NCBI GenBank assembly: GCA_001303705.1
Contig: LJUI01000020.1
Location: 1-25,523, forward strand
Reading direction: 5' to 3'
DNA: 25,523 nucleotides
From: a candidate division TA06 bacterium SM23_40
GTDB lineage: Bacteria; LJUI01; SM1-40
The position numbers and the translations under genes are program-made. Below the pieces are notes generated by a model. It saw only the letters and a program-made list of their open reading frames with translations. It made no database searches and was not told the origin of the DNA. Position 1 is the first letter of the stretch. Each line of letters starts with the position of its first letter. Shown in pieces: positions 12,035 through 23,820 of this stretch.

Positions 12035-12549
12035 ATGATAAGTCCCGAGGAAGCAAAGGACTTGACCGCTTACTGCGGGGCGTACTGCGGGGAATGTGCC
12101 ATATACGGGGGCAGAATAATCGTACAGGTCGCGACGCAACTCAAAGCGCTGATAGAGGCTGCTGACTACCTTGAGTGGGTTCCGAAATTCGGTGGCATCG
12201 ATTTCGAGTTCGCAGAATTCTACAGGGGGTTGCCTTACTTCACGGAGAGCACGAGCGGATGCTACTGCCAGGAGCCCTGCAGAGAAGGCGGAGGAGCACC
12301 GTGCAAGGTTCGGCCGTGTGCCAAGGAGAGAGGAGTCGAGATCTGCTATGCATGTCGGGTTTTCCCTGTGAACATTTCTCATGGATTCTGGAAAAGAATC
12401 CTCGTAAGCGAGAGGATTATCAGAGATTCAAGAGACTCGGGTTGGAAGAATGGACAAGATTCCATGAGGAGAGAGCCGAGAGAGGATATGCTCACGGTAC
12501 AGGCAAGTACTACGTCCGGCCAAAGACTGATGAGACTATCGGGTGCTGA
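12035..12549 (+). pseudogene. DUF3795 Cys-rich protein with a -1 frameshift at 12361-12367
   Basis: AGGAGG (12024-12029) precedes ATG 12035. The first 111 codons encode a DUF3795-type protein: CGAYCGECAIYGG near the start, then GCYCQEPCREGGGAPCKVRPCAKERGVEICYACRVFP. The family then continues CExF…R…IKxxGLEEW. That continuation is present only in the -1 frame (CEHFSWILEKNPRKREDYQ, then GLEEWTRFHEERAERGYAHG), which ends at 12549 for a 171-residue joined product. The 0 frame instead runs unrelated residues to 12565. The break lies exactly on T TTC CCT (12361-12367), an X XXY YYZ slippery heptamer. A stem-loop (GGATTC 12383-12388 / GAATCC 12396-12401) begins 15 bases later. A lost base (mutation or sequencing error) or programmed -1 frameshifting are both possible. 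Function of DUF3795 is unknown; the cysteines suggest metal binding. Confidence 0.8.
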
Positions 12550-12595
12550 GACCATCAGATGTTGAGACTATCGGATGTCGAGACTATCGGATATT
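12532..12595. repeat. Four tandem 16-bp repeats at the end of the DUF3795 gene
   Basis: Four consecutive units start with GAGACTATC or GAGACCATC at 12532, 12548, 12564 and 12580; they differ at a few positions. The first unit contains the last codons of the DUF3795 reading frame (ETIGC), and its stop TGA 12547-12549 spans the first unit boundary. The gene tail has therefore been created or extended by the repeat. Confidence 0.9.
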
Positions 12596-12918
12596 GAGAA
12601 ATCCGTCCGTGCTCCCGATCACAGGCCCCTACCCCGTCGCGAAACCCGCAAGCGATGCGATGGATTGGGACGCCGTTCAGCGCCGGAGAGGAACCAGCGG
12701 AACGGAGAGTCGGTGTCCGACGCGCGCCGCCATTGCCTACCTCAACCGGCGAGCCTCGGGAGAGGCGGCGTGCCGCGAAGCTATCGGCGACCTGCGCTCG
12801 CTGAAGAGAAGCTATCTCAGTCTCCTGGCTGTCCACGTGATAAATAGCGAGGGGGATCCTTTCGTGGCGAGCATCGGTCTCGAGGAGCTCGAGCTATTTC
12901 CGTTCCGGCGCGAGGATA
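12596..12918. other. 323-base region without a supported gene
   Basis: A 132-codon open frame (12543-12941) crosses this stretch. Its N-terminus is made of the 16-bp repeat, and the rest has no recognisable family or ribosome-binding site. A short segment (about 12736-12880) could be remains of the 5' half of the acetyltransferase relic that follows, but I cannot show this. Confidence 0.4.
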
Positions 12919-13103
12919 ATGATCTCTGTCCGGGCGGATGAAGGTGCGCTCTTTCGCAAGCTGAGCGATATCCTGCCCGAGCATCAGGGTCCCGGGGGAT
13001 CGGGACCTTCCTGATCCGGCAGGTCATGGGTCGGGCCCGGGACCGGGGAGTTCCGACACGCCTCCAAGTACTGAGGGTGAATGCGGCCCGGAGCTCGGGC
13101 TGA
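12919..13103 (+). pseudogene. GNAT acetyltransferase relic, split over two frames
   Basis: In the frame starting at ATG 12919 the sequence reads DEGALFRKLSDILPEHQGPG. From 12996, in the next frame, it reads GIGTFLIRQVMGRARDRG followed by VPTRLQVLRVN-AARSSG to a TGA at 13101-13103. Joined, this is the signature of GCN5-related N-acetyltransferases: the acetyl-CoA loop 'LPEHQGRGIGTxLI' and the following 'a…G.p.rLqVLkvN..A' strand. The conserved Arg of QGRG is Pro here and one base is out of register at the same point. The N-terminal half of a normal gene of about 150 codons is missing or unrecognisable. The broken point is also the centre of a strong hairpin (12983-13015). Confidence 0.7.
12983..13015. 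other. Extended hairpin inside the GNAT relic
   Basis: GGTCCCG (12988-12994) and CGGGACC (13001-13007) are perfect complements around a 6-base loop. The flanks ATCAGG (12983-12988) and CCTGAT (13010-13015) extend the stem with a small bulge. There is no T-run, so it is not a normal terminator. It coincides with the frameshift in the relic, so the hairpin may have promoted the mutation or arisen from it. Confidence 0.5.
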
Positions 13104-13136
13104 TCGTCGGTTGCCGGGCGTAGAAAGGAATGCGGT

Positions 13137-13505
13137 ATGGCAGAATCAGCATTCGCGGAACTCAAGCGACGTACTCTCGTGAAATCACTGCTCTGGCGTG
13201 TCATCGGGATTGTGTGGACGTGGGTGGGAGCGTATTGCATCATTATGATCGTCCCGCCCACCTCGAGGAATGCTCCGATCATAGCGACCCTGATTGTGAT
13301 CTATCACCATTCGACGCGAACGATTATGTACTACTTCTACGAAAGAATCTGGGCCGCAATCTCCTGGGGTAAATACGATCTCAGGGAGGGCTCATATCGT
13401 CCCATGTCCAGGAGTGACCTGCTGATCTGGACATTCAGCACCCTCGCTGCGGTGGGATTTATCGTCTTCCTGGTTCTGTTCGTGGCACCACTCGTGACGA
13501 GATGA
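13137..13505 (+). CDS. DUF2061 membrane protein
   Basis: AAAGGA (13124-13129) lies 7 bases before the ATG. The 122-residue protein carries the DUF2061 pattern 'KRRTLVKSLLWRVIGIVWTWVGAYCI', then 'RTIMYYFYERIWAAISWGKYD', with hydrophobic segments at about 20-38, 45-60 and 97-118. DUF2061 proteins are small predicted membrane proteins of unknown function; the conserved 'YYxHER.W..i.WG' is here YYFYERIWAAISWG. It is intact although flanked on both sides by decayed genes. Confidence 0.88.
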   Translation: MAESAFAELKRRTLVKSLLWRVIGIVWTWVGAYCIIMIVPPTSRNAPIIATLIVIYHHSTRTIMYYFYERIWAAISWGKYDLREGSYRPMSRSDLLIWTFSTLAAVGFIVFLVLFVAPLVTR

Positions 13506-13672
13506 TAGACTCCCCCGGTGCTCACTCCGGCGCGTCGTCCGCGGCTCGCGGTTTCCAGCCGTCAGTGGATAGTGATCCGTCGAAGTCAGTCAGAATCGGT
13601 GTCCGCGTAGGCCAGCGGCGGGTCGGCTTGAATGTTCGGGTACAGACGCTCTGGAGTATGGGGATGGAGACG

Positions 13673-13984
13673 ATGATGGATTTCTCAGGAAGCATGTCCT
13701 CGTCACCGTCGGCTCGCGCGGGGTCGGCTGCGGCATCACTGAGGCGTTCGGCAACGAGGGAGCGCGGGTGGGCATCTGGTTGAGGACGAACGAAAGGGCA
13801 GGGCGGAACGTGCTGAGCTCTCTGCCGGGCAGCCCTCATCTCATCATGCAGGCAGACGTCGCGCAGCTGGAGTCGTCGCGCGGCCGGAGTCGTCGCGCCG
13901 GGCTTGGTGGAGGCGGACCTGTCCGCCCCCCTGCGTGAGGGGCCGGAAGGTGATGAGATCAGGAGGCAGACTCCCCCGGGGCGC
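13673..13984 (+). pseudogene. Short-chain dehydrogenase (SDR) relic with frameshift and internal deletion
   Basis: From ATG 13673/13676 the sequence reads MMDFSG in one frame, then after 13690 shifts by one base. It continues KHVLVTVGSRGVGCGITEAF…GARVGIWLRTNE…LIMQADVA, the Rossmann N-terminus of a FabG-like SDR (normal motif TGxxxGxG; here TVGSRGVG). Restoring one A at 13690 joins the two. At about 13870 the frame returns to the first one and reads GVVAPGLVEADLSAPLREG, then IRRQTPPGR, which is the conserved C-terminal 'N-x-V-x-P-G-x-v-x-T-x-l…PLGR' of the same family. About 100-120 residues, including the catalytic Ser and YxxxK, are absent. The junction carries a 12-bp direct repeat GGAGTCGTCGCG (13869-13880 and 13886-13897), as expected for deletion by short-homology slippage. 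Confidence 0.75.
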
Positions 13985-14335
13985 GCTCCTGCCGGCCTCG
14001 CGCTCTTCGCCCCGGCGCCAGTTGCGACTGCGACCGGGTTTGCGATCGGTCTGCTGCTCGGGGAGCGTCTTACGAGCCGAGGGGGGAGCGTGTTCCTCGA
14101 GGCGTGGGCGTGGTCTCTCGCCAGCTGCGCCTTCGGGGCGATCGTGGGCTTCGGGTTCGGCCCGATGCTGATCGTCTTCGGCATGTTCGTCTTCGGTACG
14201 GTGGCTGTGCCGCTACGGGAGGTGAGGCATCGCACGCGGAGAGCGCCGCCCCGCCGACTCGTGTTCTCGATGCTGTGCCGGGCGGCTGCTGCGCAACCTC
14301 AGTGTAGGCCTTGCCGGTGGTACGGTAGGGAGTAG
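13904..14335 (+). CDS. Open frame joining the SDR C-terminal relic to a hydrophobic segment
   Basis: The frame beginning at TTG 13904 starts with the SDR remnant (VEADLSAPLREG) and runs on into GLALFAPAPVATATGFAIGLLLG and SLASCAFGAIVGFGFGPMLIVFGMFVFGTVAVPL, two or three likely membrane helices, followed by a basic tail. The first hydrophobic run may still be SDR (compare GLALFLAS…TG), whereas the second looks like a separate small membrane protein. There is no ribosome-binding site for TTG 13904. I regard it as a doubtful product, perhaps a chance fusion of two relics. Confidence 0.25.
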   Translation: MVEADLSAPLREGPEGDEIRRQTPPGRAPAGLALFAPAPVATATGFAIGLLLGERLTSRGGSVFLEAWAWSLASCAFGAIVGFGFGPMLIVFGMFVFGTVAVPLREVRHRTRRAPPRRLVFSMLCRAAAAQPQCRPCRWYGRE

Positions 14336-14338
14336 CAG

Positions 14339-14470
14339 ATGGGACAATCACTTCACTCCCACGGACGTGAGCCTCGGTTTGAGCTGATGGTTGGTGAAGA
14401 GGAGTGGATACGGGTTCCGGTTCAGCAGATCTCGCTCACGCTCCAAAGCTGGATTCTGCCGTCGGGCTGA
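14339..14470 (+). CDS. Short open frame, 43 aa, hypothetical
   Basis: ATG 14339 follows GGGAG (about 14328-14332). The product MGQSLHSHGREPRFELMVGE continues with EEWIRVPVQQISLTLQSWIL to a TGA at 14468-14470. Its composition (few Arg/Pro/Ala shadow-type residues) looks like real protein, but I recognise no family. It may be the 5' fragment of a truncated gene, consistent with the decayed surroundings. Confidence 0.35.
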   Translation: MGQSLHSHGREPRFELMVGEEEWIRVPVQQISLTLQSWILPSG

Positions 14471-14526
14471 CGAGACTCAAGGCATGTGATCACTCCACCT
14501 GAGTGAACAGGCCGATTAGGAGGGGG

Positions 14527-15015
14527 ATGGGCACCGTGAATGATTTGATCAGGGTTATGGGCGAGCTCGAGCGCATCCGTTCAGCGACTCTCGACACGCT
14601 GGAGACGCTGACACAGGAACGGCTCGACTGGCGGCCGCCCGCTCTGGATGGCAGGGAAGAGTGGTCTCTCGGTGAGGTATTCATGCACCTCGCCATTGAT
14701 GAGATCTACTTGCGCGAGCTGATCGCGCGCCCCTTGCTGGAGGGGATAAGCCCTCCGGAAGGTGTGCGGTTCATCCCGCCGCCACCTCCGTACGGAACGG
14801 CCAAAGATGTCATCTGGTTCTGGTTCGAGCGCGCCCGCAGAGAGACGCGCCGTCTCTTCGAGGATTTGCCCGAGGGGGCGAACCTCGAACTTACCCATGA
14901 AGGCGGCCTGGAGCCGATGAACGGCCTCGAGTGGTTCGAGGGATACGCCTCTCACGAGGCGTTTCACCACAGGCAGATCGGAAGGCTGATCGCAGCGCAT
15001 TCCAGGGCGGAGTGA
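14527..15015 (+). CDS. DinB-family protein
   Basis: The protein is a four-helix-bundle DinB/YfiT-type protein of 162 residues. Helix one is ELERIRSATLDTLETLTQERLDWRP, followed by 'EWSLGEVFMHLAIDEIYLRELI'. The C-terminal 'YASHEAFHHRQIGRLI' supplies the HxxxHxxQ-like metal ligands, with the first His in FMHLA. Members bind a divalent metal and many act as thiol- or substrate-transferases; function here is unknown. AGGAGG (14518-14523) stands close before ATG 14527; GTG 14536 is an alternative with better spacing. It appears to be a single-gene unit. Confidence 0.85.
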   Translation: MGTVNDLIRVMGELERIRSATLDTLETLTQERLDWRPPALDGREEWSLGEVFMHLAIDEIYLRELIARPLLEGISPPEGVRFIPPPPPYGTAKDVIWFWFERARRETRRLFEDLPEGANLELTHEGGLEPMNGLEWFEGYASHEAFHHRQIGRLIAAHSRAE

Positions 15016-15174
15016 GGAGAGGACGGGGGACGGCAGCATTCTCGAAGACTGATGACTGGAGGGAGACACGCGGGCGGAGGCGGGCTGAGTGGGCTGTCGG
15101 CTACTCCCCTCAGGAGCAAACCGGCACAGTGTTCCTTCCGCGGAGGCGATTGGGATGTTGAGGTCGTGGCCTCA

Positions 15175-15203
15175 TTGACAGGGGATGGGCTTCGTGATAC
15201 TAT
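15175..15203 (+). promoter_or_regulatory. Sigma70-type promoter for the secreted propeller protein
   Basis: TTGACA (15175-15180), a 17-base spacer and TACTAT (15198-15203) form a near-consensus promoter about 75 bases before the ATG at 15277. The predicted start of transcription is near 15210, giving a leader of roughly 65 bases. This is the best promoter I see in the window. Confidence 0.75.
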
Positions 15204-15276
15204 GATATGACCCCGGGCGCGGCGATCACGAGGGTCATTCTTTTTTCGGCGAATCACCAAGGACAGGGGTACGAGC

Positions 15277-16887
15277 ATGATCTGTCTGCAGTCTCGTTGG
15301 CGTCGATTCCGTTCGACAATTCTCATTTCGCTCATTCTGGTCGCGGTATGGTCAGGCGCAGAAGCGAGAGCGACCTCGGAACTGTACATGACCGGTGCTG
15401 AGCGGAGTCTCTCGCTCTCGCCGGATACGACCGGTGTCTATACTGATCCCTTCTGGCTCAATCGAACGCTCGTGTGGGGGAATTTCATATTGCCCGAGGA
15501 GATCCGCGGCGACTCCTGTTCGTTTCATATCTGGGCACGGAGGAGCGATGTCTCGGGGACTGCGCACTTCCGGGCGACGATATCGATTGATGAATGGGAT
15601 CTCGCGTCGTTTGATTTCTATCCTGCCAGCAATACCTACCAGGTGTACGAGCTGGACTTTCCGTGTGTGGTTCCCGATTCGACCGCAGGGCGCGAGGTGG
15701 GGCTCACCATCACGCTTGAGAGCCAGACAGAGGGCGAGATACGTTATGGCGAGGGTTACGAGTCCTCTATTGAGATCCCGGCCATCGTCGTTCCGATACC
15801 GGTCCTCTCGGTCATCGATTCGCTGGCTGTGCGCTCAGGTCCGCGCGACGTTGCATGGGACGAAGGGAGTTCTACTGTCTGGTATGTCGATGCGGACAGT
15901 GAAGTGATGATCGAGCTCGATCCAGATACGGGCGATGAGCTGACGGAGATACCCTCGCCCTGTGCGGCACCGGCAGGGCTTAGCTGGGATGGGGTGTCGG
16001 TCGGCGGCCCCTATCTCTGGCTCTCCAACGCCGATTCGCTCGGCGGCGACGATACGATCTACAAGATCGACATCGCTCAAGGCGCGGCAGTCGATACGTT
16101 CGAAGTATCGCTGGGTTGGTGTACCGGCCTCGGGTGGGACAATGTGACGCCGGGCGGGCCATACCTCTGGTGCCTCGACTTGGAGGCGGAGATGATATTC
16201 ATGTACCAGGCCGGCGAAGGCTCGCTCGTGCCCATGACGAACGCACCGCCGCCTGACGGGGATTGCCGGCCGCTCACGGTGGGTAGCGGATCCTACTGGA
16301 CAGCGACAGTGACGTCGGACGAAGATACGATCTTCACGGGCTGGCCCGGGACGACACCGGACCGTTTCGGGATGCCGGGTGGGCCGGAAGATCTTCCGGT
16401 TGGGCTTGCGCTCGACGAGACCTCTCCCGGAGGGCCGTTCCTCTGGTGTGCCGACGCAAACAGAAGATACATCTACAAACTGTCGCCGACTCCCACCCGA
16501 GTTGAGGAGGGTGGAGAGGGAGATGTGCCGGCAGGGCCGCACTCGTGCAGTCTCGAGCTGCACCAGAACTTCCCCAACCCGTTTGGTGGTGAGACGACGA
16601 TCCGGTTTCGGGTTGCGACGCCGGGATCGAGAGGCCCGGTCGTACCCCGGGAAGGAACCGCGGATGCGGGACAACAGGTGAGGCTCGCGGTGTACAACCT
16701 CCAGGGACAGCTCGTGAGGACGCTCTTCGGGCATTCTTCGGGGATGTCTGGGGAATTGGTGGCGAGGTGGGACGGGAGGGATGTGGCCGGACGACCCGTG
16801 GGATCAGGGGTCTACTTCGTGCGGCTGAGCCTCGGTTCGAATAGAGGCGAGGAGCACGTAACGAGGAAGATGGTGGTCCTCAAATAG
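15277..16887 (+). CDS. Secreted beta-propeller-like protein with C-terminal sorting/FlgD-like tail
   Basis: The 536-residue product has a signal peptide (RWRRFRSTILISLILVAVWSG, likely cut after AEARA). An N-terminal beta-rich domain of about 150 residues follows. Residues from about 185 to 410 carry repeated blade-like units: 'GPRDVAWDEGSSTVWYVDADS', then three copies of GGPYLW or GGPFLW preceded by 'GLxWD' (GLSWDGVSVGGPYLW, GLGWDNVTPGGPYLW, GLALDETSPGGPFLW). These resemble NHL/YVTN-type propellers. The last ~110 residues are LHQNFPNPFGGETTIRF, VYNLQGQLVRTLF, WDGRDVAGRPVGSGVYFVRL and RKMVVLK. This is the type A sorting domain that directs proteins through type IX secretion in Bacteroidetes and is widely found in candidate phyla. 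No secretion machinery is in the window; ligand unknown. Confidence 0.88.
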   Translation: MICLQSRWRRFRSTILISLILVAVWSGAEARATSELYMTGAERSLSLSPDTTGVYTDPFWLNRTLVWGNFILPEEIRGDSCSFHIWARRSDVSGTAHFRATISIDEWDLASFDFYPASNTYQVYELDFPCVVPDSTAGREVGLTITLESQTEGEIRYGEGYESSIEIPAIVVPIPVLSVIDSLAVRSGPRDVAWDEGSSTVWYVDADSEVMIELDPDTGDELTEIPSPCAAPAGLSWDGVSVGGPYLWLSNADSLGGDDTIYKIDIAQGAAVDTFEVSLGWCTGLGWDNVTPGGPYLWCLDLEAEMIFMYQAGEGSLVPMTNAPPPDGDCRPLTVGSGSYWTATVTSDEDTIFTGWPGTTPDRFGMPGGPEDLPVGLALDETSPGGPFLWCADANRRYIYKLSPTPTRVEEGGEGDVPAGPHSCSLELHQNFPNPFGGETTIRFRVATPGSRGPVVPREGTADAGQQVRLAVYNLQGQLVRTLFGHSSGMSGELVARWDGRDVAGRPVGSGVYFVRLSLGSNRGEEHVTRKMVVLK

Positions 16888-16903
16888 CATCACATGATCC
16901 CGT

Positions 16904-17052
16904 GAGGCTCGGAGGAAACTCAGATTTCACGAGGGTCGGAGGAAGCTCAGATCTCATGAGGCTTTGAGGAAGCTCAGATCTCATGAGGCTCGGAGGAAAC
17001 TCAGATTTTACGAGGCTCGGAGGAAACTCAGATTTTACGAGGCTCGGAGGAA
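16904..17052. repeat. 27-bp tandem repeat, about 5.5 copies
   Basis: Units begin GAGGCTCGGAGGAA or close variants at 16904, 16931, 16958, 16985 and 17012, with a partial sixth from 17039. Copies 4 and 5 are identical and the first three differ by a few substitutions. The block starts 17 bases after the stop of the propeller gene. Because 27 is a multiple of three it stays open as a repetitive peptide (RRKLRFYEA), but other frames are mostly open too and no ribosome-binding site is seen. I treat it as non-coding. Confidence 0.92.
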
Positions 17053-17156
17053 TCTTTTTCTGGATGAGCGCGGGGCGCCGTCTTCTCGCGCCTTGTTACT
17101 GGTGGGCCTGAGGTGCGGGCAGCACGAGGAGGGCGGTTGCTCCCGTGCGCTCCAGG

Positions 17157-17172
17157 GCCACGTGCACGTGGC
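17157..17172. other. 16-bp perfect palindrome upstream of the cobalamin locus
   Basis: GCCACGTGCACGTGGC is self-complementary, and the symmetry extends to 17154-17175 with one G/T mismatch. It lies about 55 bases before the probable promoter of the B12 locus. It could be an operator or an exact-symmetry chance site; nothing else identifies it. Confidence 0.4.
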
Positions 17173-17226
17173 TCTGTGGGGGAAGGGTGTGCCGCAGGAG
17201 CTGCGATCGAACGACGGTTTTTTCGG

Positions 17227-17256
17227 TTGACATAGTGAGGGCAGTTGACGTACAGT
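17227..17256 (+). promoter_or_regulatory. Probable promoter of the cobalamin uptake locus
   Basis: TTGACA (17227-17232), an 18-base spacer and TACAGT (17251-17256) lie just upstream of the riboswitch. A second -35-like TTGACG (17245-17250) and a palindrome TGTGTACACA (17260-17269) are close by, so the exact start is uncertain. Confidence 0.45.
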
Positions 17257-17282
17257 ATTTGTGTACACATAGACAATTCTGG

Positions 17283-17447
17283 GGACGGGTGCCGTGCAGG
17301 TGAAAAGGGAAGTACGGTGAGAGTCCGTCGCGGCCCCGCCACTGTGAGCGGTGACGAAAGCCGGAAGATCGGTGCGTATGAGCCACTGGGCTACGGCCTG
17401 GGAAGGCCCGGCGAGTAGGAGGATCCGCAAGCCAGGAGACCTGCCCG
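17283..17447 (+). promoter_or_regulatory. Cobalamin (B12) riboswitch
   Basis: The conserved core is clear: GGTGCCGTGCAGGTGAAAAG (17288 onward), GGGAA, GAGAGTCCGTCGCGGCCCCG, GCCACTGTGAGC near 17338, GACGAAAGCCGGAAGATC and the B12 box AAGCCAGGAGACCTGCC at about 17429-17445. Cobalamin binding to such leaders lowers expression of transport and synthesis genes. Its position directly before btuF, C, D and B fits control of the whole uptake locus. Confidence 0.96.
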
Positions 17448-17505
17448 TTCCTACGGAGTGACTGGCCCTCGCAGGGAGGGCCCGGCACAGCTGTTGGTGC
17501 GCGGT

Positions 17506-17549
17506 ACGCTCGGGACCCCCGTTGGAGGGTTCTCGGGCGTTCTTGATTT
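17506..17549 (+). terminator. Candidate riboswitch-controlled terminator
   Basis: A long stem is formed by 17506-17519 and 17527-17540 (CGCTCGGGACCC against GGGTTCTCGGGCG, with G-T wobbles and one mismatch), followed by TTCTTGATTT. It lies 60 bases after the B12 box and 150 bases before btuF, so it may be the transcription-termination platform. The switch pairing with the aptamer was not worked out. A second stem, GGCCCTC/GAGGGCC at 17464-17482, lies between the B12 box and this terminator. Confidence 0.5.
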
Positions 17550-17669
17550 GTGGGCGTTGTACCCGGGCGGAGCAGTTCGTCTGACGGAGCATGCCCGGCG
17601 GAGGCAAGATGCCCGCCTCGCGTGTGATGCTCGCGCCGGCGCGTTCAGGCAGAACGGCAGTCCATATAG

Positions 17670-17708
17670 TGGTGTCAGAATGGTCATGTCAAGATGGTGC
17701 TGTCAAAG
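17670..17708. repeat. 14-15 bp tandem duplication over the btuF start
   Basis: TGGTGTCAGA (17670-17679), ATGGTCATGTCAAG (17680-17693) and ATGGTGCTGTCAAAG (17694-17708) are successive related units. The third provides the start codon chosen for btuF. ATGs at 17680 and 17686 are out of frame with it. No Shine-Dalgarno is visible in these units. Confidence 0.6.
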
Positions 17709-18650
17709 ATAGTTGCATCGGCGGGCCTTAGATCCTGGGTGTCGGCGGCCGCGGCGTGTCTGCACCTCGCGAAGGTATGCATGCTGGCCGCGGTAGGCGC
17801 GACACTCGTCGCGGGATGCAGTTCACCGGAGCGCAGTGAAGAGCTTCAGGCCGCGGCCTATCGGGGAACTGACAGCCTCGATCGCACCGTGGTACTCGAG
17901 GTCCAGCCGGTTCGCCTTGTGTCTCTCGCCCCGAATATCACGGAGATTCTCTATGCCCTGGGAGCGGGGACGCGGGTCGTTGGCGTGACAACTTACTGTA
18001 ACTACCCACCGGAAGTGACGGGGACCAGGAGGGTTGGCGACTTCTCTAATCCGAGCCTGGAGCGGATCGTTACTCTCGAGCCGGATCTCGTCTTCCTCAC
18101 GTCACACGAACAGGGACCTCTCCTCTCCAAGCTGGAGGGGCTTGGCCTGCGCGCGTTCGTCGTTTATCCACAGACCATCGCGGAGCTACAGGGGATGATC
18201 GGGGAGATCGGTGCACTCATCGGATGCGAGGACGAGGCTGAGACGCTCGCGGCGGAGATAGGAGGGTTGTGGAAGGGAGCGGCAGAGGAGCGGCGGCCCC
18301 GGGTATTCCTCGAGATAACAGAAGATCCCCTGATGACGGTAGGAGACGACTCGTTCGTAGGGGAGATGATACGCCTGGCCGGGGGAGAGAACATCGCACA
18401 CGATCTGCCCCGTCGCTATGCCGTAATCAGTCCTGAACGTGTGATCGCAGCGGATCCGGAGGTGATCATCGTTGCCCACCCAGGTGCCAGTAGGGAGACG
18501 GTAGGGCAGCGGCTTGGGTGGGGAAGGATCGAGGCTGTGCGCAGCGGGAGGGTGTACGACGATATCGATCCCGACCTCATCATGAGGGCCGGTCCGCGCG
18601 TGGTGCAGGGCGTGGCCGCTCTCAGAGCGTGCATAAGTGAAGCCCGCTGA
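17694..18650 (+). CDS. btuF: Cobalamin-binding lipoprotein, BtuF-like
   Basis: This is a 318-residue periplasmic substrate-binding protein of the BtuF/FecB/HutB cluster. The N-terminus is long and ends in a lipobox (LVAGC, Cys42), so the protein should be anchored to a membrane by lipid. The binding fold begins 'RLVSLAPNITEILYALGAGTRVVGVTTYCNYP', with 'RVGDFSNPSLERIVTLEPDLVF' and, later, 'VGDDSFVGEMIRLAGGENIA' and 'PEVIIVAHPG'. BtuF captures cobalamin delivered by BtuB and passes it to BtuCD. B12 specificity is supported by the riboswitch upstream and by btuC, btuD and btuB downstream. The start is weakly supported: no Shine-Dalgarno precedes it, and an internal ATG (17781) would give a shorter signal peptide with the same lipobox. 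Confidence 0.92.
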   Translation: MVLSKIVASAGLRSWVSAAAACLHLAKVCMLAAVGATLVAGCSSPERSEELQAAAYRGTDSLDRTVVLEVQPVRLVSLAPNITEILYALGAGTRVVGVTTYCNYPPEVTGTRRVGDFSNPSLERIVTLEPDLVFLTSHEQGPLLSKLEGLGLRAFVVYPQTIAELQGMIGEIGALIGCEDEAETLAAEIGGLWKGAAEERRPRVFLEITEDPLMTVGDDSFVGEMIRLAGGENIAHDLPRRYAVISPERVIAADPEVIIVAHPGASRETVGQRLGWGRIEAVRSGRVYDDIDPDLIMRAGPRVVQGVAALRACISEAR

Positions 18651-18690
18651 ACGTGCGGAGGCGTGCTCGGACTCCTGAGTGCGGCAGGTG

Positions 18691-19187
18691 CTAAACAAGT
18701 TGACACAGAACGTAAGGGCGTTGACCTATCCGGGAGTCAAGCAAGTTGGCCTATCAGGCAACCGCGTTAACGTGTTCAGGGAGCCTGGGAGAGTAGCACA
18801 GGAGGCAACCGTGTTCACCCGTTCGGAAGGGTCAAGCACGGCAACACAGGAGGCAGCGGCGTTCACCCGTTCAGAAGGCTCAAGCACGACAGCACAGGAG
18901 GTAGTGGCTTTGACTCGTTCGGAAGGGTCGAGCACGGCAGCACAGGGGGCGGCGGCGTTCAGTCGTTCAGCAGGGTCAAGCACGGCAGCACAGGAGGCGC
19001 TTGCGTTGATCCTTCGGGAGTCGAGGAAGTCGACACAGCTGGCGCTTGCGTTGACCCCTTCGGGAGTCGAGGAAGTCGACACAGGAGGCAACCGCTATCA
19101 CCTGTTCGGGGAGTCAAGCAAGTGAACAGTGGAGGCAAGTGCGTTACCTCGTTTGGCAGGCCAAGTAAGTTGACACTTCTGTCAACA
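18691..19187. repeat. Degenerate 45-48 bp tandem repeat block between btuF and btuC
   Basis: About 10 units are seen, each holding a GTTNACC-CGTTCGG part, a GTCAAGCA(C/A)G part and an ACACAGGAGGCA part. The four central copies (about 18813-19005) are 48 bp and most alike; flanking copies are 45-47 bp and more divergent. This is the pattern expected of a decaying minisatellite growing from the middle. The block stays open on both strands, reading FTRSEGSSTATQEAAA-like units on + from GTG 18679. I see no ribosome-binding site or family, so a protein is not supported. It fills most of the 660-base gap within the B12 locus. Confidence 0.88.
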
Positions 19188-19316
19188 TCGTTGTCGGGTC
19201 GGCGCGCGGGCGGCCAGCAGACGATCCAGGCCGGGCAGAGCGGGCGGCGAGTTGCTCGCATCCCGGGTTGAGCCGTGTGGAAGCTCGGCGGTCAGATACA
19301 GAGAGGATAGTGCGTG

Positions 19317-20354
19317 ATGAGAGAGGGAAAGCGGCTGGTCAAGATTGGCCTTGCCTTGCTCTTCCTCGCCGGGAGCGGGTATCTCTGCGTGGCTATCGGC
19401 CCGGGGGCTCTCGCCCCGTGGCGATGGGATTGGACCTGGGCCGGCACGCTATTCGCCGGCGGGCGGTGGGGGGACCGGACGATGATAAACATACTCCTCA
19501 ATGTCCGACTTCCCCGTGTGGCGCTGGGAGCAGTTGTTGGCGCCGCCCTTGCGGGTACCGGGGTCGTGTTTCAGGGCCTGCTCAGGAACCCGCTGGGCGA
19601 TCCCTACATCCTCGGCGTCTCCTCGGGCGCAGCGGTGGGGGCGAGTGCCGGGATCCTCCTCGGGCTGGGCGCTTCTCTATATGGAACCGTGCTCATCCCG
19701 GTCACCGCCTTCTGCGGCGCCGTCGTCGTAATGTTCGTTGTGTACGCGCTCGGTCGAGTGGGAGGCAGAGTGCCGCCGGATACACTGCTCCTCGCCGGGG
19801 TGATCGTCAATTTCTTTCTCGGCGGCCTGTTGAGCCTTGCCATGGCGCTTGCCCAGCGCGAGCTTCACGAGATCGTATACATCCTGCTGGGCAATCTCGG
19901 ACTCATTCTGACGACGACAACGGTGATCCTGTTCGGCACGGTTGCGTTGCTCGTCGTCGCTGGCCTTGTCGTCGTCTATCTGTTTGCACGCGAGCTCAAT
20001 CTGCTCGCGCTCGGCGAGGAGCCGGCTGAACATCTGGGGGTCGACGTCAACCGCACGCGCAAGATTTTATTCGTTGTCGCGTCACTCCTCGTCGGGGCCG
20101 TCGTCTCGATCAGCGGCTTGATCGGGTTTGTCGGGCTGGTGATCCCGCACACGGTGCGCATGGTCTCCGGGCCTGATCACCGCACCCTCATTCCCCTGTC
20201 CGCGATGAGCGGCGCGATCCTCCTGATGTGGGCCGACGCAGTGGCACGCACGGTCGCGCCGACGGAGATACCGGTCGGCGTTGTCACTGCTCTCATTGGT
20301 GGTCCGTACTTCATCTACCTCCTGCGGCGGAGCCACCGGATGGTGATGCCATGA
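19317..20354 (+). CDS. btuC: Cobalamin ABC transporter permease, BtuC-like (FecCD family)
   Basis: The product is a polytopic FecCD-family permease of about 345 residues. Motifs include 'VRLPRVALGAVVGAALAGTGVVFQGLLRNPLGDPYILGVSSGAAVGA' near the N-terminus, the coupling loop 'LGEEPAEHLGVDVNRTRKI' and 'SGLIGFVGLVIPHTVRMVSGPDHRTLIPLSAMSGA'. It ends in 'IPVGVVTALIGGPYFIYLLRR'. It forms the inner-membrane channel, as a dimer, through which BtuF-delivered cobalamin passes. Sequence alone cannot tell it from a haem or siderophore permease; the riboswitch context decides. AGAGGA (19302-19307) precedes ATG 19317; GTG 19314 is a neighbouring alternative. Its stop overlaps the next start (ATGA at 20351). 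Confidence 0.93.
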   Translation: MREGKRLVKIGLALLFLAGSGYLCVAIGPGALAPWRWDWTWAGTLFAGGRWGDRTMINILLNVRLPRVALGAVVGAALAGTGVVFQGLLRNPLGDPYILGVSSGAAVGASAGILLGLGASLYGTVLIPVTAFCGAVVVMFVVYALGRVGGRVPPDTLLLAGVIVNFFLGGLLSLAMALAQRELHEIVYILLGNLGLILTTTTVILFGTVALLVVAGLVVVYLFARELNLLALGEEPAEHLGVDVNRTRKILFVVASLLVGAVVSISGLIGFVGLVIPHTVRMVSGPDHRTLIPLSAMSGAILLMWADAVARTVAPTEIPVGVVTALIGGPYFIYLLRRSHRMVMP

Positions 20355-21181
20355 ACGATCATCGAGGATCGATTCAGATCCGCGATCTCTGGTTCCGGTA
20401 CGAGGGAGACTGGGTGCTCAAAGGCATCGATCTCTCGATCGGGCCCGGCGAGGTGTGGGGCATCATCGGCCCCAACGGCGCCGGGAAGTCAACGTTGCTC
20501 AGGTGCGTGTCGGGGATCCGTCGGGCGCAGCAGGGGGAGATATGGCTGGAGGGGCAGAGGCTCGATCGGATGTCGCGGATCGACATTGCGCGGATCATGT
20601 CTGTAGTGCCGCAGGAGACTGCGATCGTCTTCCCGTTTCGTGTGCTGGAGATCGTTCTCATGGGGAGATCACCGTTTCTCGGGCGCTTCGAGATGGCCCG
20701 TGAGGGGGACATCGAGATCGCCAGGCAGAACATGGAGCTCGCAGAGTGCTGGGACCTGCGGGAGAGGCCGGTCACTGATCTATCGGGGGGGGAACGGCGT
20801 CGGGTCATGATCGCGAAGGCGCTCACCCAGTCGCCACGCATCGTGCTGCTCGATGAACCGACCTCCCATCTCGACATCGGGCATCAGGTCCAGATACTGG
20901 ATGCGCTCCGCGATCTGAGCGTGCGGGATGGGGTGACGGTGGTGGCGACGATGCACGATCTCAACCTGGCGAGTGAGTTCTGCGGGCGCCTGGCACTGAT
21001 GGCGGATGGACAAGTCGTAGCAGAAGGGAGGCCGGAGGAGCTCCTCGTGCCGGAGCTGCTCGAGCGGGTGTACCATGTGAGGCCCGATATCGCCGAGAAT
21101 CCGAGGACGGGAAAGCCGATGGTATTCGTCGGCACAGCAACAGGAAGGCGCGGCCGGGCCGGGACTCTCGTCGAAGAGTAG
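20351..21181 (+). CDS. btuD: Cobalamin ABC transporter ATPase, BtuD-like
   Basis: The 276-residue ATP-binding subunit has Walker A GPNGAGKST (40-48), Q-loop VPQET (86-90), signature LSGGERRR (144-151), Walker B IVLLDEP (164-170) followed by TSHLD, and switch His in TMHDLN (200-205). 'PNGAGKSTLLR' and 'QTGxxxPF…VLMGRSPFLG'-like regions are typical of the FepC/BtuD/HmuV group. It powers BtuC. Start ATG 20351 overlaps the btuC stop as ATGA, so translation is coupled; no strong Shine-Dalgarno is present. The C-terminus has an extra tail of about 25 residues ending GRRGRAGTLVEE. Confidence 0.95.
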   Translation: MNDHRGSIQIRDLWFRYEGDWVLKGIDLSIGPGEVWGIIGPNGAGKSTLLRCVSGIRRAQQGEIWLEGQRLDRMSRIDIARIMSVVPQETAIVFPFRVLEIVLMGRSPFLGRFEMAREGDIEIARQNMELAECWDLRERPVTDLSGGERRRVMIAKALTQSPRIVLLDEPTSHLDIGHQVQILDALRDLSVRDGVTVVATMHDLNLASEFCGRLALMADGQVVAEGRPEELLVPELLERVYHVRPDIAENPRTGKPMVFVGTATGRRGRAGTLVEE

Positions 21182-21272
21182 GCCGTAGATATCGGCCCGT
21201 ATCCGCAATCGGACGGACGGCAATCGATTTGTAACTATACCTCGCTCAGGTCTGCGCTAAAACTTCCTCTGC

Positions 21273-21286
21273 GATACAACTGTATC
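21273..21286 (+). other. Small hairpin in the btuD-btuB spacer
   Basis: GATAC (21273-21277) and GTATC (21282-21286) form a perfect stem around AACT, and adjacent GC/GC bases could extend it. It lies in the 149-base spacer before btuB. There is no T-run, so it is at most a processing or attenuation element. Confidence 0.3.
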
Positions 21287-21330
21287 TGCGGTCGGACCGT
21301 GGCTCGACAACATCTGGGGAGGGTGAGAAG

Positions 21331-23280
21331 ATGGCATATGGAGGAAGGCGACCGGGGAGGCTGGCGAACTGGATGGTGCCCCCGACGATATGCCTCCAGT
21401 TCGTACTGGCGTCTGCTGTGGGTCTCCACGCAGCGAAGATGCCGGAGGCCGATGCGCGCGCGCCAGGCGCGACTGGCGGGGAGGTCACGGACATAGATTC
21501 CCTGCCCTACGTTCCCATTCCCAAGTATACCTATGTGCTCGAGGAACTCGTGGTGACGGCATCGCGCATACGGGAGCCGGTCCGGACCGCGCCTGCGAGC
21601 GTAGCTGTCATCAGTGCCGAGGAGATCGTCGACTCGGGGAGCGACCTGTTGAGCGACGTGCTCGACCCGATCGCGGGCGTGAACGTGGCCCGGTACGGCT
21701 GGGTAGGGCAGCTCTGTACCGGCGGCCTGCGCGGCTCGACGTACCAGCAGGTGCTGTACCTGTACGACGGTCGTCCCTTGTATGACCCGCACACGGGCGG
21801 ATTCGATCTCTCGCATACAGCAATCAACGGGTTCGAGAGGATCGAGACTCTATTGGGAGGCGCGTCATCCCTGTACGGGGCGAATGCACTCGGAGGGGTC
21901 GTCAATCTGATTCCCAAAGTCTTCGACGGAGATGTGCCGTACACAAAGGTCACACTCGAACGGGGAACCTACAACACCTCGTTCAGCCGGCTCGAGTTCG
22001 GCACGCAGCTCAGCGAACGGTTGGACGTTTATGTCACGGGCGAGTACCGAACGACCGAGGGGTTCAGGGAGAACAGCGATTCGAAGGGAAGGAGTGCATC
22101 TGCAAGAGCGCGGTATTGGCTGAACGATCAGCTGAATCTCAATTTCTCGATCAATCGATTCAACGGCGAGCTTGGCGTCCCCGGTTCTCTCACATGGCCG
22201 TCGTCAGATGCGCGCCAGCGGGACAACCGGGTCGATATGGACGTGGGCCTACAGGGAGAAATCGGCTCATATGGCTATTCGAAACTGAACCTCTACGGGA
22301 GCGATATCTGGTACCGGTATGAGGATGCGTGGGGGACGACGAGCCACACTGACTTCATAGGAGGTGGGGTCGTACAGCACACGTTCCCCGAGTGGCGCGG
22401 GCAGCGCCTCACCCTAGGAGCGGAGGGCGAGATGGTAGAGGCGCGCGTCAATGCAGGAGATGAGGACCGGACCCACCGTGAGGGCCTGTACGTTCGGGGA
22501 GTGGTTCGCCCGATCCCGCGGCTCTCTCTCGTCGCGGGGGGCCGATATGACCACCATTCTCAGTACGGCTCACACCTCTCTCCATCCGTGAACGCCGGCT
22601 ATGAGATCGGTCCCATGCTCCTCGCCTTCGCGGGATACGATCATTCGTACAAGGCTCCGACACTGAACGATCTCGATCCCCGATGGAACGGCGACCCGGG
22701 TCTGAAGCCGGAGCAGGCAGATGCGGTTCAAGTAGGTCTCAGAGAGCAGGGTTTGCTCCCGGTCGAGGCACAGGTGGCGGCGTTTGCCCGTCGGACGAGC
22801 GACGAGATCATCTGGGTGACAGACGACGGGTTCAACTGGTATCCGCGCAACATTGGACGGACGGAGGCAAAGGGATTGGAGGTGAGTCTTCGTGGCGAGC
22901 TCGGGGCCGGATTCAGCGGCGCGGCTGCGTACGCCTATGCTGACGTACGAGATCGTGAAACTGAGAAGCTGATTCTGTACCGTCCCCAACACAGGGTGTC
23001 GGGGCATCTCCAGTACCGCCGTGCGTTGAGGCACGACCGGGTTCATGTGACGCTGCGGATCGGGGGACTGCACGTTGGAGAGCGGTATGCTGACAACGAA
23101 GAGTCGACGGCAGTGGAGAGCTTCACTCTTGTGAACGGCAGGGGCGTGCTCAAGATCGTCGACGTCTCCCTGTACTATGAGATCGACAACCTCCTCGATA
23201 GCGAATATCAGTACATGTTCGATTACCCGATGCCCCGCAGGACGACTTCCATCGGCATCGCGTGGGAGTTCTGGGACTAA
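21331..23280 (+). CDS. btuB: TonB-dependent cobalamin receptor, BtuB-like
   Basis: The 649-residue outer-membrane receptor has a signal peptide (LANWMVPPTICLQFVLASAVG, cut near HAA) and a TonB-box-like segment (YVLEELVVTASRI, about 68-80). The plug domain follows: 'APASVAVISAEEIVDSGSDLLSDVLDPIAGVNVARYG', 'GLRGSTYQQVLYLYDGRPL' and 'IERIETLLGGASSLYGANALGGVVNLI' with small variants. A 22-strand-type barrel ends in RRTTSIGIAWEFWD. It would import cobalamin across the outer membrane using TonB energy; no tonB/exbBD is in the window. The last residue is Asp, one past the aromatic residue that usually ends such barrels. GGAGGG (21318-21323) gives a strong ribosome-binding site. Confidence 0.93.
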   Translation: MAYGGRRPGRLANWMVPPTICLQFVLASAVGLHAAKMPEADARAPGATGGEVTDIDSLPYVPIPKYTYVLEELVVTASRIREPVRTAPASVAVISAEEIVDSGSDLLSDVLDPIAGVNVARYGWVGQLCTGGLRGSTYQQVLYLYDGRPLYDPHTGGFDLSHTAINGFERIETLLGGASSLYGANALGGVVNLIPKVFDGDVPYTKVTLERGTYNTSFSRLEFGTQLSERLDVYVTGEYRTTEGFRENSDSKGRSASARARYWLNDQLNLNFSINRFNGELGVPGSLTWPSSDARQRDNRVDMDVGLQGEIGSYGYSKLNLYGSDIWYRYEDAWGTTSHTDFIGGGVVQHTFPEWRGQRLTLGAEGEMVEARVNAGDEDRTHREGLYVRGVVRPIPRLSLVAGGRYDHHSQYGSHLSPSVNAGYEIGPMLLAFAGYDHSYKAPTLNDLDPRWNGDPGLKPEQADAVQVGLREQGLLPVEAQVAAFARRTSDEIIWVTDDGFNWYPRNIGRTEAKGLEVSLRGELGAGFSGAAAYAYADVRDRETEKLILYRPQHRVSGHLQYRRALRHDRVHVTLRIGGLHVGERYADNEESTAVESFTLVNGRGVLKIVDVSLYYEIDNLLDSEYQYMFDYPMPRRTTSIGIAWEFWD

Positions 23281-23374
23281 GGCCAACAGGAGCGGTAATG
23301 GCGGCCGGTCTTGAGTCGAGCAGTGACAGGGGTCCCGCCCATTTGACAACCAGGGCCTCTATTGCCATTATTAA

Positions 23375-23400
23375 GGTAGCCACCGGGTGGCTGCCTTTTT
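23375..23400 (+). terminator. Intrinsic terminator after btuB
   Basis: GGTAGCCAC (23375-23383) pairs with GTGGCTGCC (23387-23395, one G-T wobble) around CGG and is followed directly by TTTTT. It lies 95 bases after the btuB stop and should end the cobalamin transcript. Confidence 0.9.
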
Positions 23401-23499
23401 GGTGTCTGGCGCACACGGCACGACCTCCCGGCCCCCGAAGGGGGTGGAGGAGGTTGTGCCTCGCGCGAACCGGGCGGGTGGTTAGATGGCTCGGCCGGG

Positions 23500-23820
23500 G
23501 AACGGGCGCTGGCGGCGAGCGCTCGATAAGGGGATGGACGCTGGCGGCGAGCATGCTCGACGAGGGGAGGGACAGAACCGGCGGTTAGCCAGCGTGACCA
23601 AGGAATGGGTGCTAACGGCGAGCGCTCGATAAGGGTACGGACGCTGGCGGTGAACGTGGTCGGCGAGGGGATGGACGGTGGCTGCGAACAGGCTCGACGA
23701 GCGGAGGAACAGAACCGGTCGTTAGCCAGCGTGACGAGGTAATGGGTGCTAACGGCGAGCGCTTGATAAGGGAATGGACGCTAACGGCGGACGTGCTCGA
23801 CGAGGGAATGGACGATGAGG
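23500..23820. repeat. Degenerate 33-36 bp repeats with a ~137-bp higher-order period
   Basis: About nine to ten related units carry GCTGGCGGCGAGC (or GCTAACGGCGAGC), then GCTCGA(T/C)(A/G)AGG and a GGATGGAC-like end. Every fourth unit is a distinct form beginning ACAGAACCGG and containing GTTAGCCAGCGTGAC (from 23572 and again from 23709, a 137-base offset). This implies block duplication. The last unit runs into the next gene: its GAGGGA (23802-23807) acts as the Shine-Dalgarno and its GGACGATG contains the start codon. The region between the terminator and this block shows nothing recognisable. Confidence 0.85.

Follow-up and report, generated by a model that had tools for sequence, protein, structure and literature searches.

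Why do tandem-repeat blocks with unrelated units recur between the genes of one short contig of the candidate division TA06 bacterium SM23_40, and are they separate elements or products of a single process? The window analysed here is the entire contig of 25,523 nucleotides. It belongs to a metagenome-assembled genome that totals 2.88 Mb over 189 contigs, with a completeness of 89.8% and a G+C of ~0.60. The organism is taxonomically isolated in the collection of 97,973 species genomes that was consulted, which includes no second genome of its phylum. The initial annotation listed five degenerate blocks at gene boundaries, and proposed either unusual slippage or repair behaviour or selection for spacer repeats near transcript ends. 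Tandem Repeats Finder (TRF) located the following arrays in the window:

12531..12599, + strand: degenerate 16-bp array, unit TGAGACTATCGGATGT, 4.3 copies, TRF score 96
13857..13898, strand not assigned: 17-bp array, 2.5 copies, TRF score 70
16904-17052 (16896..17052 with the 81-bp reading), + strand: 27-bp array, unit GAGGCTCGGAGGAAACTCAGATTTCAC, 5.5 copies
17680..17706, strand not assigned: 14-bp near-duplicate, initially listed as 14-15 bp at 17670-17708, 1.9 copies, TRF score 40
about 18690..19187, + strand: 45-48-bp array, ~10 copies, TRF score 275
23498..23814, + strand: 32-34-bp array with a 137-bp higher-order unit, TRF score 431 at 137 bp

As a chance baseline, 60 windows of random sequence with matching composition and length were simulated. 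These averaged 0.95 arrays with a score of at least 40 and 0.03 with a score of at least 60, and the top score was 61. The 16-, 27-, 45-48- and 137-bp blocks are far above chance, and in each of them two or more copies of a unit exceeding 10 bp follow one another head to tail. The 27-bp block scores 221 at 27 bp and 244 at 81 bp, the latter reading starting at 16896. The 14-15-bp block is indistinguishable from chance, since a score of 40 is expected about once per random window, and it was not counted. Thus, four of the five blocks first described are real degenerate arrays (scores 96, 244, 275 and 431). The 17-bp array at 13857-13898, absent from the initial list, is real but small. The window carries 4 arrays against 1.2 expected, having been chosen for its arrays.

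TRF places the 45-48-bp array at 18795-19138 (score 275 over 18795-18998, plus a 46-bp extension), and weaker copies lie beyond it. Its central four copies are best preserved, as are copies 4-5 of the 27-bp block, in keeping with the earlier remark that the best copies are central or terminal. The 137-bp higher-order unit at 23498-23814 is present in 2.3 copies, each built from 32-34-bp units.

Gene calls around the blocks come from a home-made caller based on codon usage, which may miss small genes, and every gene called in the window is on the + strand. A WD40-like protein is also encoded in the reported stretch (Pfam). The features closest to the arrays are:

12035-12549 (ORF 12175-12549), + strand: frameshifted DUF3795-family gene, with the DUF3795 match on the upstream frame
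15388..16887, + strand: secreted protein with an FlgD_ig-like C-terminus (gene call; Pfam FlgD_ig, E 9e-6, just under the cut-off)
17270..17462, + strand: cobalamin riboswitch (Rfam RF00174, 117.6 bits)
17694..18650, + strand: BtuF-like periplasmic binding protein (Pfam Peripla_BP_2)
19314..20354, + strand: BtuC-like FecCD permease (Pfam FecCD)
20351..21181, + strand: BtuD-like ABC ATPase (gene call; Pfam ABC_tran in the longer ORF 20228-21178)
21331..23280, + strand: TonB-dependent receptor, BtuB-like by position (Pfam Plug and TonB_dep_Rec_b-barrel)

The 16-bp block overlaps the final codons of the frameshifted DUF3795-family gene, and the 27-bp block, 3' of the gene for the secreted FlgD_ig-like protein, begins ~17 bp past a stop codon. 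The 45-48-bp array occupies most of the 666-bp btuF-btuC gap in a cobalamin uptake cluster headed by a riboswitch. The last block (23498-23814) starts 217 bp beyond the preceding gene and ends 42 bp short of the next. The placement at gene edges therefore holds for the four real blocks only insofar as they are intergenic, and the 45-48-bp block lies in mid-gap. The frame of the DUF3795-family gene breaks near 12358 (at GGGTTTTCCC); its N-terminal part matches DUF3795 and its tail apparently continues in another frame; it may be a real pseudogene or the product of a sequence error. A scan with BtuF, run in search of relatives, returned distant homologues alone, at no more than 46% identity and in other phyla.

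The blocks belong to a pattern that extends across the genome. In a sample of 1.107 Mb of the same genome, taken in stretches and 16% non-coding, TRF found 51 intergenic arrays with a score of at least 80 and 11 within genes, corresponding to 29.5 per 100 kb outside genes and 1.2 inside (~24x). Markov simulation of the genome's own intergenic DNA yielded 0-1 arrays with a score of at least 50, while the real sample holds 79 intergenic ones. With sensitive TRF settings, arrays cover 9.5% of real intergenic bases and 0.9% of simulated ones; overall, roughly 4-10% of intergenic DNA lies in arrays, varying with TRF sensitivity. Stretches without any array number 54 of 84, against 46.9 expected, so that clustering is no more than mild. 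The blocks are best read as examples of this single pattern, not as five separate elements.

For comparison, stretches from 38 other genomes, E. coli K-12 among them, were pooled (1.30 Mb) and contained 10 comparable arrays. Per 100 kb of non-coding DNA, 28.0 arrays were counted here and 5.2 in the controls, a 5.4-fold difference (binomial P ~2e-8). None of the 14 controls represented by several stretches, each sampled with 40-100 kb only, reached 28 per 100 kb. Array-rich genomes may occur elsewhere, as four arrays were found in L036, one 20-kb stretch from a different genome.

The units of these arrays are private to their loci, as first noted for the lack of a common consensus among the blocks. 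No dispersed relative was found within the 1.1-Mb sample for 74 of the 79 intergenic arrays, and the 27-bp, 45-48-bp and 137-bp blocks have no other match anywhere in the whole genome. In the 15 arrays whose copy number allowed the comparison, similarity was higher between neighbours (0.81) than between distant copies (0.755; Wilcoxon P=0.003), which is the mark of stepwise local duplication and fits its combination with point mutation. The period is divisible by three in 30 of the 79 intergenic arrays, about the one-third expected by chance, in contrast to 31 of the 34 arrays inside genes; as a class, the intergenic arrays are therefore non-coding. RNA folding of the units showed no excess over shuffled units (mean z 0.11), and the search for a motif common to the arrays gave nothing beyond weak words rich in purines and the GGGGACGTTGG family, which is dispersed.

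Two small dispersed families were seen in the course of this work. The motif GGGGACGTTGGTAGGTTC(A/T)G(A/T)AGGTTA has 29 core matches in 1.1 Mb, all 29 intergenic and often paired, in 13 of 84 stretches (L102, L107, L109, L110, L113, L119, L122, L134, L139, L146, L147, L149 and L150), and a related form, GGGGACGTACC(C/T)AG, occurs near it. No Y1 transposase for this family scored above the cut-off in the genome, where one sub-threshold partial match was obtained, and the GGGGACGTTGGTAGGTTC motif had no exact match in viral contigs. The second family, around ACCGGACATTTCT (L101:1298-1365, L135:12264-12358, L132:3647-3682 and L098:471-511), is possibly made of remnants of a mobile element end.

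Taken together, these results favour, with a probability of roughly 0.8, the reading that the blocks are ordinary neutral intergenic minisatellites, generated by slippage or unequal recombination and unusually dense in this genome. They are ordinary in kind and notable in density; their source in slippage or recombination and their neutrality are what we infer from the pattern. A review presents slippage and recombination as the two principal models for how tandem repeats change (PMC3899988). According to the minisatellite reading, replication slippage or unequal recombination would produce a tandem duplication of a short intergenic stretch, and the resulting array would then gain or lose copies locally. 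The unit would be drawn from whatever sequence was there, and therefore each array would have its own. Copies would decay through point mutation because they are unconstrained, and arrays would come to lie between genes because in-gene changes of copy number are presumably selected against unless the frame is kept.

The proposal of selection, with the arrays acting as spacers or regulatory elements at the ends of transcripts, is improbable. Of the 59 arrays in co-directional gaps, 18 are no more than 30 bp from the upstream 3' end, where random placement predicts 14.0, a slight excess in favour of the proposal (P=0.075), and 16 lie near the 5' end against 14.0. Placement within gaps is thus near random, and selection at transcript ends lacks support, with a small effect still possible. 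Since there is no significant pull to gene ends, the phrase 'at gene boundaries' largely restates 'between genes'. Co-directional, convergent and divergent gaps also carry similar densities (5.0, 4.0 and 4.9 arrays per 10 kb respectively), the units give no fold signal and share one dispersed family as their sole common motif, and one array lies within the btuF-btuC gap. The largest arrays are mildly enriched in purines on the sense strand, which may be counted on the side of such elements. The purine fraction is 0.587 in arrays and 0.529 in all gaps (P=1e-5), but against their own gaps the excess over all 50 arrays is not significant (P=0.29), and the bias is therefore not array-specific, except possibly in the 20 arrays with a score of at least 120 (0.585 vs 0.543 in the rest of the gap, P=0.04). 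This richness of the largest arrays is not predicted by a fully neutral model.

Two other readings are more doubtful still. One might suspect small repeat ORFs, or genes for repeat proteins that have since decayed, because ORF 18679-19125 stays open for 148 aa through the 45-48-bp block and in-frame repeats exist inside this genome's genes. However, intergenic periods do not favour multiples of three, no Pfam match was obtained, and the opposite strand of the block is likewise open for 121 aa, as is common in GC-rich DNA. Assembly artefacts are equally hard to credit. The assembly is a fragmented metagenome assembly, probably from short reads, and mutL contains a run of N; but the longest exact repeat in any window block is 41 bp, short enough for each diverged copy to be positioned unambiguously by short reads, and mis-joined identical reads cannot yield diverged copies.

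A cause might also be added to the minisatellite reading, rather than set against it, if the lineage had unusual duplication or repair biochemistry, such as a polymerase or single-stranded-DNA nuclease trait, that yields far more tandem duplications. This is unlikely, though clearly less so than the readings above. It draws on the 5.4-fold array density over the pooled controls and on the SbcD_C domain, which was not found in this ~90% complete assembly but is likewise missing from 8 of the 14 control genomes. Against it, the same density would be expected from weaker purifying selection on long gaps. An obvious repair defect, for which mutS, mutL and recombination genes had been proposed as a check, did not emerge: MutS (a 955-aa open frame), MutS2, MutL, RecA, RecJ and the large subunit of ExoVII were all found in the genome. 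Loss of mismatch repair is therefore not the cause. Mismatch repair acts on loops of a few bases, and units of 16-137 bp would be unrestrained by it regardless. The mutL gene reads 591 aa, and its end is unreadable because the run of N in its C-terminal part (stretch L155, contig C189) interrupts the frame. There is a small chance that this isolated lineage carries a replication or repair trait that produces 15-140-bp tandem duplications at several times the usual rate despite its MutS, MutL, RecA and RecJ genes, leaving intergenic DNA that consists partly of decayed minisatellites.

The significance of the minisatellite reading depends on what the density reflects. If it reflects a higher duplication rate, the genome would offer a natural system for the birth of bacterial minisatellites, a process that usually shows itself just through polymorphism between strains at a small number of loci. 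If the density reflects merely relaxed selection on long gaps, it would be a descriptive trait of one genome.

Among known systems, CRISPR arrays resemble the blocks in their direct repeats and regular spacing. The units here are degenerate and abut head to tail, with no unique spacers between them, and no cas genes were found among the identified window proteins (Pfam), so that a CRISPR array was rejected. Palindromic units and BIME clusters of E. coli are similarly short, intergenic and sometimes clustered. BIMEs, however, belong to one palindromic family genome-wide, in contrast to the unrelated, non-palindromic units of the present arrays; no inverted repeats were found in the 45-48-bp block, and the assignment was set aside because no palindromic unit is shared across many loci. 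Minisatellites are a known component of bacterial genome diversity (PMC2884548), and the closest likeness is to the bacterial intergenic minisatellites or VNTR loci used in MLVA typing. Both consist of tandem units longer than 10 bp that are mostly intergenic, with a locus-specific unit and variable divergence between copies. The arrays of SM23_40 differ from those loci in a density above that of the sampled genomes.
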